Source: Polystyrenella longa (lineage in GTDB: Bacteria; Planctomycetota; Planctomycetia; Planctomycetales; Planctomycetaceae). From it: DNA of 64,000 nt. The notes beneath the pieces were generated by a model. The model saw nothing but the letters and a program-made list of their open reading frames with translations. It searched no databases and was not told where the DNA came from. Position numbers and translations under genes: made by a program. Positions 35,477 through 43,845 of the stretch are shown piece after piece. How positions within the stretch are numbered: position 1 is the stretch's first letter; each line of letters opens with the position of its first letter. The stretch spans positions 5,169,001 through 5,233,000 of the forward strand of contig NZ_CP036281.1 in the NCBI RefSeq assembly GCF_007750395.1, given 5' to 3'.

Positions 35477-35971
35477 TTAGTGAAACATACGACCGAAGAA
35501 GGAAGATTTGTGTCCGCATGATCCGCAGCCACAAGAAGAAGCTGGTGCACAGCAGCTGGGCTCAGGAGCACAGCAAGAAGGTGCAGCAGGAGCACAGCAG
35601 GGCTCAGGAGCACAGCAGCTTGGCTCGGGAGCACAGCAAGTTGGCTCAGGTGAGCAGCAACGGTTTTTCTTTTTGAAGCAGCTGAACAGTTTGTCGAACA
35701 TGCAAGATTTTTTGGCTTTGCAGCAAGAAACTGGAGCACAGCAGGTGGGCTCAGGAGCACAGCAAGAAGGAGCTGGTGCACAGCAAACTGGTTCAGGTGC
35801 ACAGCAAGAAGGAGCTGGTGCACAGCAGCTTGGCTCTGGAGCACAGCAAGAAGGTTCAACTGAAGCACAACAGCTATTGTTGTTGTGTCCGAACAAGTTG
35901 AACAGGCCAGCTTCTGCCTGAGTGCTCAAGCTACAAAGGGCCAACGCAGCGGTCAAAGTAATCCAACGCAT
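35477..35971 (-). CDS. Secreted Cys-rich CCAPEP tandem-repeat protein
   Basis: This 164-residue protein has a clear Sec signal peptide (about 1-21, ending AEAG). The mature part is built almost entirely of the heptad-like repeat SCCAPEP, with AP, EP and VP variants. I count 14 Cys-Cys pairs in two blocks separated by a basic linker (CFKKKNRCC), and an end [12 protein letters not shown]. That is over 30 cysteines in about 140 mature residues. AGGAG (35981-35985) lies well placed before the ATG. No function is recognised. A disulfide-cross-linked structural or metal-binding surface role is the natural guess, and the protein would need a disulfide-forming periplasm or oxidising outside. It is followed by a minus-strand terminator. 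Its antisense frame is a shadow of the repeat. Confidence 0.85.
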
Positions 35972-35985
35972 TTTAGTAATCTCCT

Positions 35986-35997
35986 GAAAACGTTTTC
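35986..35997. promoter_or_regulatory. 12-bp palindrome upstream of the CCAPEP gene (LacI-type operator-like)
   Basis: GAAAACGTTTTC is a perfect palindrome centred on CG, just upstream of the ribosome binding site of the CCAPEP gene. The extended TGAAAACGTTTTCG is close to LacI/CcpA-type operators (TGWAARCGYTWNCW). It could alternatively form a short RNA hairpin in the leader. Confidence 0.45.
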
Positions 35998-42123: not shown

Positions 42124-43845
42124 ATGTCGGAAGAAGTGAAGCTAAGTAAACTAGAACAACTGAAGTTGGATAGCCGTCAACTTCGTGGAACGATTGCTGA
42201 AGAGTTGGCCAACGATGAGCTCGCCTTTTCTGCGGATGCATCTCAGTTGCTCAAGCATCACGGAAGCTATCAACAGGACAACCGAGACGAGCGAAATAAA
42301 AAGCTGCCCGATGGTACCAAGCAAGGGAAGGTTTACAGCATGATGCTTCGCACCCGTATGCCGGGTGGGAAGGTCACGGCGAAGCAATTCCTGACCGAAC
42401 TTGACCTCTGTGATCAATACGGAAACGGTACATTACGAGTGACGACTCGCCAGGCGTTTCAGCTTCATGAGATTCCCAAGAAACATATGAAGACCGTCGT
42501 CCGGGCCATTAACGATTCGGAGTTGTCCACCATCTCCGCCTGTGGTGACGTAAACAGAAACGTCATCGCTTGTCCTGCTCCATTCAAAAACAACTCACTC
42601 TTCGACGACATGCAGAAGATGGCCGATCAACTGGCCGACCATTTCCGCCCTCACTCGACAGCCTATTGCGAAATCTGGCTCGAAGATGACGAAGGTGGAA
42701 AAACAAAAATCGAAGAGTTCAAACCGGTCGAAGAGCCGATCTACGGCGAACGCTACCTCCCCCGTAAATTCAAGATGGGAGTCGCTCTTCCGGACGATAA
42801 CTGTATCGACCTGCACGCCAACGATCTTGGTTTCCTGGCGATTGTAGAAGACGAAAAGATCGTCGGCTACAACTTACTCGCAGGTGGCGGAATGGGCACG
42901 ACCCCCTCGCTGAAAGGCAAAACCTTTCCAGCACTGGCTGTCCCCCTCTGCTACGCAACAGTCGATGAAACGATCGCTGTGGCCGAAGCCGTCGTCAAAG
43001 TCCAACGCGACTTCGGAAACCGGGAAGATCGTAAGATCGCCCGCATGAAGTATGTCATCGCAGACTGGGGTATTGAAAAGTTCCGGGAAAAAGTAGGTGA
43101 ATACTACGGTAAAGAGCTCACGCTACCTCTGGATGTTTTCGTCACTGACGCAGATGACCATATCGGTTGGTACGAACAGGGGGACGGTAAATGGTTCCTC
43201 GGTGTGAATATCGAAAACGGTCGTATCCAGGACGAAGGCGATTTACGAATTAAAACAGGTCTGCGAACTATCCTCGAAAAGTATAGGATGGATGTCCGAT
43301 TGACGGCGTTGCAAGCCGTTCTGCTCTGTAACATCGAAGAACAGGACAAAGCCGACATCGAACAGACATTGCGCGATCATGGCATTAAAATGGCTGAAGA
43401 GCTTTCGCTGCTGCGACGATATTCGATCGCCTGCCCTGCTCTACCAACGTGTGGTTTGGCTGTGACCGAGTCGGAACGAATTCTGCCTGCTCTGATCGAT
43501 TCCCTTGAAGCCGAACTGGAACGGGTTGGACTTGCCGATGAGAAAATTGCACTCCACATGACCGGTTGCCCGAACGGTTGTGCCCGACCTTACCATCCGG
43601 ACATCGGTTTGGTAGGTAAAGCGAAAGGGAAATACACTCTGTTTCTTGGCGGGAATGTGATCGGAACCCGGTTGGCTTTCATCTACAAAGACATGGTACC
43701 TCTCGAAGAGATCGTCCCTCTCTGCGTACCTTTGTTCGAATATTACGCTAAGGATCGAACCGGTGCGGAAAGCTTCGGTGACTTCTGTAACCGTAAGGGA
43801 GCCGAAGATCTGGAAGCCTACGCTGAAAAAGCGATGGCCAGTTAA
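42124..43845 (+). CDS. Siroheme/4Fe-4S sulfite (or nitrite) reductase hemoprotein
   Basis: This 573-residue protein has the two-repeat architecture of CysI/NirA hemoproteins. The ferredoxin-like half-domains are at about 70-130 and 340-400. The siroheme/4Fe-4S cysteines are C-x5-C (ACPALPTCGLAV) and C-x3-C (MTGCPNGCARPY), near residues 437-490. Sulfite reductase takes six electrons from NADPH or ferredoxin to make sulfide for cysteine. Nitrite reductase is closely related and cannot be excluded by eye. The sequence RNVIACPAPFKNN and TLRVTTRQAFQLHE is of CysI type. No flavoprotein partner or sulfate-assimilation gene is next to it, so it is a stand-alone unit closed by a terminator at 43898-43938. 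Confidence 0.9.
   Translation: MSEEVKLSKLEQLKLDSRQLRGTIAEELANDELAFSADASQLLKHHGSYQQDNRDERNKKLPDGTKQGKVYSMMLRTRMPGGKVTAKQFLTELDLCDQYGNGTLRVTTRQAFQLHEIPKKHMKTVVRAINDSELSTISACGDVNRNVIACPAPFKNNSLFDDMQKMADQLADHFRPHSTAYCEIWLEDDEGGKTKIEEFKPVEEPIYGERYLPRKFKMGVALPDDNCIDLHANDLGFLAIVEDEKIVGYNLLAGGGMGTTPSLKGKTFPALAVPLCYATVDETIAVAEAVVKVQRDFGNREDRKIARMKYVIADWGIEKFREKVGEYYGKELTLPLDVFVTDADDHIGWYEQGDGKWFLGVNIENGRIQDEGDLRIKTGLRTILEKYRMDVRLTALQAVLLCNIEEQDKADIEQTLRDHGIKMAEELSLLRRYSIACPALPTCGLAVTESERILPALIDSLEAELERVGLADEKIALHMTGCPNGCARPYHPDIGLVGKAKGKYTLFLGGNVIGTRLAFIYKDMVPLEEIVPLCVPLFEYYAKDRTGAESFGDFCNRKGAEDLEAYAEKAMAS

Follow-up and report, generated by a model that had tools for sequence, protein, structure and literature searches.

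A cysteine- and proline-rich repeat protein family of planctomycetes with elements that recur on some YTV wall proteins

Introduction

What kind of protein is encoded by a small planctomycete gene that specifies Cys-Cys pairs at regular intervals, and what might such a protein do in the cell envelope? The question arises from an open reading frame (ORF) in the window, by which we mean the whole 64,000-nucleotide stretch of Polystyrenella longa DNA analyzed here. Chemical measurements made in the 1980s are reported to have found the envelope of Planctomyces rich in proline and cysteine, stabilized by disulfides and resistant to SDS. A planctomycete protein sacculus with disulfide bonds has been described (PMC2754498), as has a proteinaceous wall that stays intact after boiling in SDS (PMC3422733). 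The YTV proteins are reported as major wall constituents present in wall preparations (PMC5287468, PMC8567305); one of them has been placed in a group of essential genes limited almost entirely to planctomycetes, and suggested as a regulator of wall rigidity (PMC10632474). Because later work reported peptidoglycan in these bacteria too (PMC10632474, PMC5287468), the protein wall is to be seen as one component and not as the sole wall.

Architecture of the CCAPEP protein

The ORF starts with ATG, and its ends fall exactly at 35477 and 35971 on the minus strand, giving a protein of 164 residues (Table 1). It contains 34 cysteines, 33 of which belong to the predicted mature chain of 143 residues, where Cys makes up 23.1% and Pro 16.1%. 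By comparison, the 31 window ORFs of at least 200 residues, which are mechanical calls unchecked as genes, average 1.07% Cys and have at most 2 CC pairs per ORF. The initial annotation had proposed about 14 regularly spaced Cys-Cys pairs, and we indeed counted 14, with 8 of the 13 CC-to-CC spacings being exactly 7; 10,000 shufflings of the mature sequence never reached 14 CC pairs (mean 6.0) or eight spacings of 7 (mean 0.19). Its description of the mature protein as almost wholly repetitive has to be amended, as a basic module of 20 residues separates the two arrays, and an 11-residue N-terminus and a 19-residue C-terminus are likewise non-repeat. Neither array has a Lys or Arg residue, so that a tryptic digest would miss them. 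At the DNA level, Tandem Repeats Finder places arrays with periods of 21 and 42 bp within 35532-35650 and 35731-35854, and the alternative reading frames across this repeat DNA are also open. The predicted signal ends in AEA, is kept in the same-genus orthologue and has similar counterparts in other family members, which suggests that the earlier reading of the protein as secreted is right.

An AlphaFold model built on alignment A1 has low confidence (mean pLDDT 52.5, pTM 0.16); the signal helix (residues 2-14) is its sole fairly confident part. An amphipathic helix was considered for the basic module, and hydrophobic moments were no better than those of shuffled sequences in four of the five modules tried; we therefore call the module basic and hydrophobic only.

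The window protein matched no family in Pfam (hmmscan, up to E 10, with HMMER filters losing most weak matches) or NCBIfam (up to E 10), and no entry among PDB or phage sequences. These results bear out the statement that no described family was recognizable. Two paralogues are encoded in the same genome (Table 1). The larger, P0002, shares with the window protein a signal-like N-terminus, CCAPEAS/T arrays and LF motifs, and differs from it in its length, its HEAT_2 domain and a Pro-rich C-terminus. The smaller appears to lie upstream of a kinase-like ORF.

Table 1. Location of the CCAPEP gene, its parts and related genes. Coordinates without a prefix are window positions.
Feature	Position	Strand	Basis or source
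CCAPEP repeat protein gene, 164 aa	35477..35971, stop codon included	minus	ORF call; purifying selection against same-genus orthologue
Predicted Sec-type signal peptide, 21 residues, cut before GLFNLF	35909..35971	minus	read from sequence
First CC-A-P-E/A-P-S/T array, residues 34-84, 8 CC pairs	35720..35872	minus	Tandem Repeats Finder and CC count
Basic, hydrophobic module, 20 residues (85-104), net charge +7	35660..35719	minus	charge count
Second CC array, residues 105-141, 6 CC pairs	35549..35659	minus	Tandem Repeats Finder and CC count
Conserved C-terminal tail, 23 residues (142-164)	35480..35548	minus	two same-genus homologues near-identical
Shine-Dalgarno-like AGGAGA, 8 nt before ATG	35980..35985	minus	read from sequence
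Perfect palindrome GAAAACGTTTTC, immediately upstream of ribosome-binding site	35986..35997	minus	kept in same-genus orthologue
Paralogue P0002, 429 aa, HEAT_2 domain (9.4e-7)	L006:2142-3428; G000:C1 about 876.6-877.9 kb	minus	same genome
Second paralogue, 177 aa, RR-containing (Tat-like) leader, repeats	L007:2356-2889		same genome
YTV protein with C-terminal CCAPEP-type array and basic module, one ORF	L121:2509-4386; G015:C1 about 5143.5-5145.4 kb		genome G015

Evolution of the gene and its surroundings

The window ORF evolves as a real gene under purifying selection. Its orthologue in the same-genus genome G002 is 84% identical and syntenic, being flanked by the same neighbours. Over 163 codons, the base differences at codon positions 1, 2 and 3 number 27, 19 and 76, and it is because they pile up at third positions (76/122) that we judge the ORF to be a real gene; NG86 estimates are 0.13 for dN and 2.26 for dS, the latter saturated. 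The signal peptide and the C-terminus are almost identical between the two proteins, and the C-terminus is also kept in the homologue of a further same-genus genome, G001.

Upstream of the gene, the Shine-Dalgarno-like site has GGAG-type counterparts before many homologues (uncounted). The adjoining palindrome was seen, among the upstream regions examined, elsewhere only in the same-genus orthologue, and 28 of 100 window shuffles contain one or more sites with no more than one mismatch. A hairpin at the ribosome-binding site was rejected as a candidate, given that 199 of 200 shuffles fold as well or better (z +1.93), and a promoter and terminator scan gave about the number of sites expected by chance. 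The 8-mer GAGTTCCT is common to the upstream regions of the L013, L015 and L019 genes (3 of 12 regions) and was also found by eye upstream of L029; CACG follows it in L015, L019 and L029. The 8-mer precedes the start codon by some tens of bases; the pattern is weak and possibly marks a promoter.

The seven neighbours scanned against Pfam comprise a GH67-N-like protein, two BamB/PQQ-type propellers, a pterin-binding enzyme, a GDP-mannose dehydratase/epimerase-like protein, a tetrahydrofolate dehydrogenase/cyclohydrolase and a nitrite/sulfite reductase, the gene for the last lying at 42124-43842, some 6 kb away from the CCAPEP gene. In a comparison with 15 loci, each about 20 kb long and drawn from other genera, whose crude ORF calls overlooked the CC gene three times, no gene adjoining the window gene recurs beside its homologues, so that a conserved operon is not supported and the CCAPEP gene probably stands alone. 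Farther out in the window, two ORF clusters are each matched by a far-off relative at a single locus, L130 having a PQQ-type ORF and L128 a different one. Three of the 15 loci, from another family of the class, have genes in common with each other; in L131 and L133 (genomes G037 and G341), likewise from another family of the class, two CCAPEP genes lie about 10 kb apart inside a conserved gene cluster.

A common repeat grammar

A spacing of exactly 7 accounts for 189 of the 444 CC-CC intervals in 40 family members, whereas shuffled sequences give 3.6% on average and 7.7% at most; this heptad grammar is common to several genera. The consensus is CC-A-P-E-P-T/S: of 190 clean heptads, 147 have Ala at position 3, 169 Pro at position 4, 127 Glu at position 5, 164 Pro at position 6 and 125 Thr or Ser at position 7. 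In 32 members the arrays are acidic on balance, in one they are neutral and in the other seven they are basic. Thirty of the 40 have a non-array segment with a charge of at least +3 and Leu, Phe or Met, which interrupts or precedes the arrays. Array length varies between homologues, with 4 to 24 CC pairs per member. The number of cysteines after residue 22 is even in 22 members and odd in 18; this mixed parity argues against purely intramolecular pairing and suits intermolecular bonds or free thiols.

The 40 members are proteins from the first-fetched loci, with L080-L087 and later loci left out. Duplicates (L002, L044, L045), a sequence cut by a contig end (L029), a YTV fragment (L035) and a representative of another subfamily (L030) were dropped, together with pieces of the same gene (L003-L005, L026, L032) and copies of the window (L001, L036-L043), the window protein being counted once. 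L021, L034, L063 and L065 failed the automatic filter, and L024 and L025, which have no ORF with three CC pairs, were also left out and may be false matches of the search of 40 relatives described below. L009 and L017 were kept as fragments missing the N-terminus. The members are not all independent, as L047/L049, L048/L050 and L051/L052/L053/L057 form near-identical sets.

Distribution of the family

Homologues are not confined to the genus but extend to further genera and to other families within the phylum. A protein search of close relatives matched 19 of 40 genomes, and a 21-row profile search matched 63 of 393 planctomycete genomes, the own genome being counted in both; the latter count has no per-family denominators, as the genomes without a match are mostly unlisted. 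Of the 63, 37 belong to the family of the window and 25 to other families of its class, so that 62 are members of the Planctomycetia. The sole match outside the class, in genome G063, is weak (E 3.1e-6) and contains one stop. As the profile is itself Cys- and Pro-rich and was searched in whole genomes of this phylum only, some of its weak matches may be other Cys-rich ORFs. In a collection of 84,980 species, a scan for short peptide patterns, which misses distant members, gave 23 confirmed loci, all 23 titled as planctomycetes or planctomycete genera. Within the searches made, the family thus appears, as found so far, to be restricted to Planctomycetota.

Searches with 21 family members returned only marginal results, namely four NCBIfam families with one member each (best E 0.042) and a weak unnamed PHROGs family for 2 of the 21 (best 0.012); the family profile gave one chance-level PDB match (E 0.096). 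In the literature, CCAPEP-type strings retrieved only unrelated papers among the matches listed, and a search on Cys-rich proteins or the protein wall of planctomycetes retrieved YTV papers, none of them concerned with the CCAPEP family by its title or the start of its abstract. CCAPEP is a real, conserved planctomycete family, undescribed in the libraries and literature searched.

Relationship to YTV wall proteins

The YTV proteins (PF07639) resemble the CCAPEP family in being Cys-rich, in their signal-like N-termini, in their distribution mainly within one planctomycete class and in their presence in the same genomes. The genome of the window contains 21 YTV domain matches; YTV is present in all 29 tested genomes with a CCAPEP match and in none of 14 control genomes. 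It is also present in all 13 class genomes in which the search of 40 relatives found no CCAPEP match, and the CCAPEP family is thus not needed for having YTV. Outside the class, YTV is marginal in 1 of 10 genomes, and G063 has none. The CCAPEP family therefore looks nested within YTV-bearing bacteria, G063 excepted.

A link to the wall is provided by YTV proteins that carry CCAPEP-like elements at an end. In genome G015, a 625-residue ORF, first found by the CCAPEP search of relatives, joins YTV domains (PF07639, 1.9e-28, 8 stretches) to CCSPAPTCCEPAPTCCAPKKSKCGLF, and its C-terminal end, CCSPAPTCCEPAPTCCAPKKSKCGLFGMLGL, is close to GCCAPKKCGLFSKLFGC of the same-genus orthologue of the window protein. 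Similar C-terminal ends are found in YTV-type proteins of G009 (APTCCAPAPVCCEEKKSCFLGRLFGH), G287 (CCEQKSHCFLDPFGLFN) and G420 (CCAPINTCCKPVCCDD); a YTV-type protein of G444 has a CCAPEP-like element at its N-terminus (AGLFGLCKKSQCCEPAPVCCAP), and one of G408 a basic LF/CC module (GLLKKLFGGCKKSCC).

Such ends characterize a minority of YTV-type proteins. With motifs composed after seeing the YTV sequences, CC-x-P-x(2-4)-CC occurs in the terminal 80 residues of 7 of 55 YTV-type proteins (shuffle mean 0.32, maximum 3 in 200 rounds) and the basic motif in those of 5 of 55 (shuffle mean 0.06, maximum 1); the remaining 48 have no array motif at their ends. The 55 were picked by regular expression and not by Pfam, many of them from a search with the G015 fusion as query, and they include that fusion, without which the counts are 6/54 and 4/54. 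Four of the seven array-positive proteins (L121, L149, L160, L162) resemble CCAPEP heptads, and the other three (L089, L090, L094), with CCEPVSYECC or CCEPATYECC, bear a looser likeness. The A1 profile gave three weak matches to YTV-type proteins (full-sequence E 4.4e-6 to 3e-5; for reversed sequences, best domain 3.3e-4 and full E 1). Convergence of low-complexity ends is possible.

The YTV profile (PF07639) did not match the window protein (hmmscan up to E 10), which is much smaller than YTV proteins and richer in Cys and Pro. The same holds for composition at the family level, with medians of 20.4% Cys and 15.9% Pro in the CCAPEP family versus 8.7% and 6.9% in the 55 YTV-type proteins. The best reading is that the CCAPEP family is associated with YTV proteins and not a member of them.

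Comparison with keratin-associated proteins

High- and ultra-high-sulfur keratin-associated proteins carry Cys-Cys-x-Pro repeats with a five-residue CC-x-P-x period. They belong to the keratin-associated proteins of mammalian hair, which are described as Cys-rich, disulfide cross-linking matrix proteins (PMC2528016). In contrast, the commonest CC spacing in the CCAPEP family is 7, spacing 5 accounting for 30 of the 444, and the CCAPEP protein is bacterial, with a signal and a basic module. The Keratin_B2 profiles did not match the window protein (Pfam up to E 10), and Keratin_B2_2 matched 1 of 21 alignment members (L054), whose 27 bits just reach the cut-off of 27; taken singly, none of its stretches passes. 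We read the likeness as convergent: the proteins would work alike without kinship.

A possible role in the protein wall

We consider the chances slightly better than even that the window protein is a secreted structural protein, or disulfide cross-linker, of the planctomycete protein wall. With its Cys and Pro content, the mature part matches the richness in these residues of the Planctomyces wall. The protein would be exported by Sec, as its signal-like N-terminus implies, and the mature chain may be extended, without a globular fold, given that proline occupies two of every seven positions and that AlphaFold gave no confident fold. If such a chain is polyproline-II-like, the seven-residue period would rotate each CC pair some 120 degrees from the one before, and cross-links would point in three directions. 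The Pro-rich acidic arrays would display a Cys-Cys pair about every seven residues, and these pairs could bond with one another inside a chain or link it by disulfides to further copies and to Cys-rich YTV proteins. The protein would thereby cross-link or fill the SDS-resistant wall while staying flexible. Docking on the envelope, or on the acidic arrays of neighbouring chains, may fall to the basic, hydrophobic module and to the LF motifs related to it that lie close to the termini. Export, wall location, disulfide state and docking are thus steps that we infer.

Of the fibre, coat or metal-binding roles suggested by the initial annotation, that of a coat or wall component is favoured by the elements that recur on some YTV wall proteins; nothing specific to a fibre was found, nor any positive sign of metal binding. 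A structural role in general is probable, judging from the YTV-shared elements; the basic module and the YTV link had escaped the annotation.

We regard it as unlikely that the protein is a metallothionein-like binder in the periplasm or at the surface, whose paired thiols would chelate soft metals (copper, zinc, cadmium) and buffer them outside the cytoplasm. Its small size and very high Cys content recall metallothioneins, and the thiols might stay reduced, as the disulfide-forming enzymes tested were not found in the genome (see below). However, the protein has no metallothionein match in Pfam or NCBIfam (up to E 10), a signal peptide and Pro-bearing CC pairs about 7 apart, and no metal-resistance or transport family occurs among the seven scanned neighbours, the nitrite/sulfite reductase 6 kb away being a metalloenzyme. 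Nor would metal binding account for the spacing of the CC-x-P units or for the resemblance at the ends of some YTV proteins.

Just as improbable, in our view, is a surface appendage or a holdfast or stalk fibre, in which the repeat chains would polymerize outside the wall into an extracellular disulfide-linked fibre. The signal-bearing repeat architecture with its variable number of arrays would suit such a polymer, and fibril bundles are reported on stalked planctomycetes (PMC3035269), but the YTV fusions point towards the wall, and no appendage family was found among the seven window neighbours scanned, those of the homologues having been compared mutually and unannotated. Still less credible is a periplasmic redox buffer, a thiol-rich scavenger of oxidants with no structural role: a signal-bearing protein with many vicinal Cys pairs might serve in this way, but the seven neighbours include no thiol-redox family, and the basic module and YTV fusions would be unaccounted for. 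Finally, that the protein is a neutral by-product of slippage in repeat DNA, as the tandem DNA repeats, variable array lengths and further open frames might suggest, is very improbable in view of the excess of third-position differences, the non-repeat ends kept within the genus and the heptad grammar common to several genera.

Disulfide formation and wall composition

None of VKOR, DsbB, Thioredoxin_4 or a signal-bearing DsbA was identified in the genome of the window, which counts against the cross-linker reading. Profile searches for the first three gave no match in this genome, which is 99.95% complete, and were positive in 3 (VKOR), 6 (DsbB) and 9 (Thioredoxin_4) of the 14 control genomes. 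If the cysteines of the CCAPEP protein are oxidized, the genome, in which the tested standard oxidases were not found, would point to a novel route of disulfide formation.

The wall cross-linker reading can be taken a step further, to a more specific and only tentative proposal: CCAPEP proteins may be an overlooked Pro/Cys-rich matrix component of the wall, a bacterial counterpart of keratin-associated proteins that uses acidic Cys-Pro heptads and basic docking modules, cross-links YTV proteins and is oxidized although no standard disulfide-forming enzyme was found in the cells. Decades-old chemistry reported the planctomycete envelope as rich in Pro and Cys and stabilized by disulfides, yet the named YTV wall proteins are only moderately Pro-rich (the median of 6.9% given above). 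With a small family of matching composition, parts of which resemble the ends of some YTV proteins, what cross-links the wall becomes a question open to direct test. The sole DSBA match in the genome (L079:1492-2463) is without a signal-like N-terminus and seems to be fused to a low-molecular-weight phosphatase-like domain.
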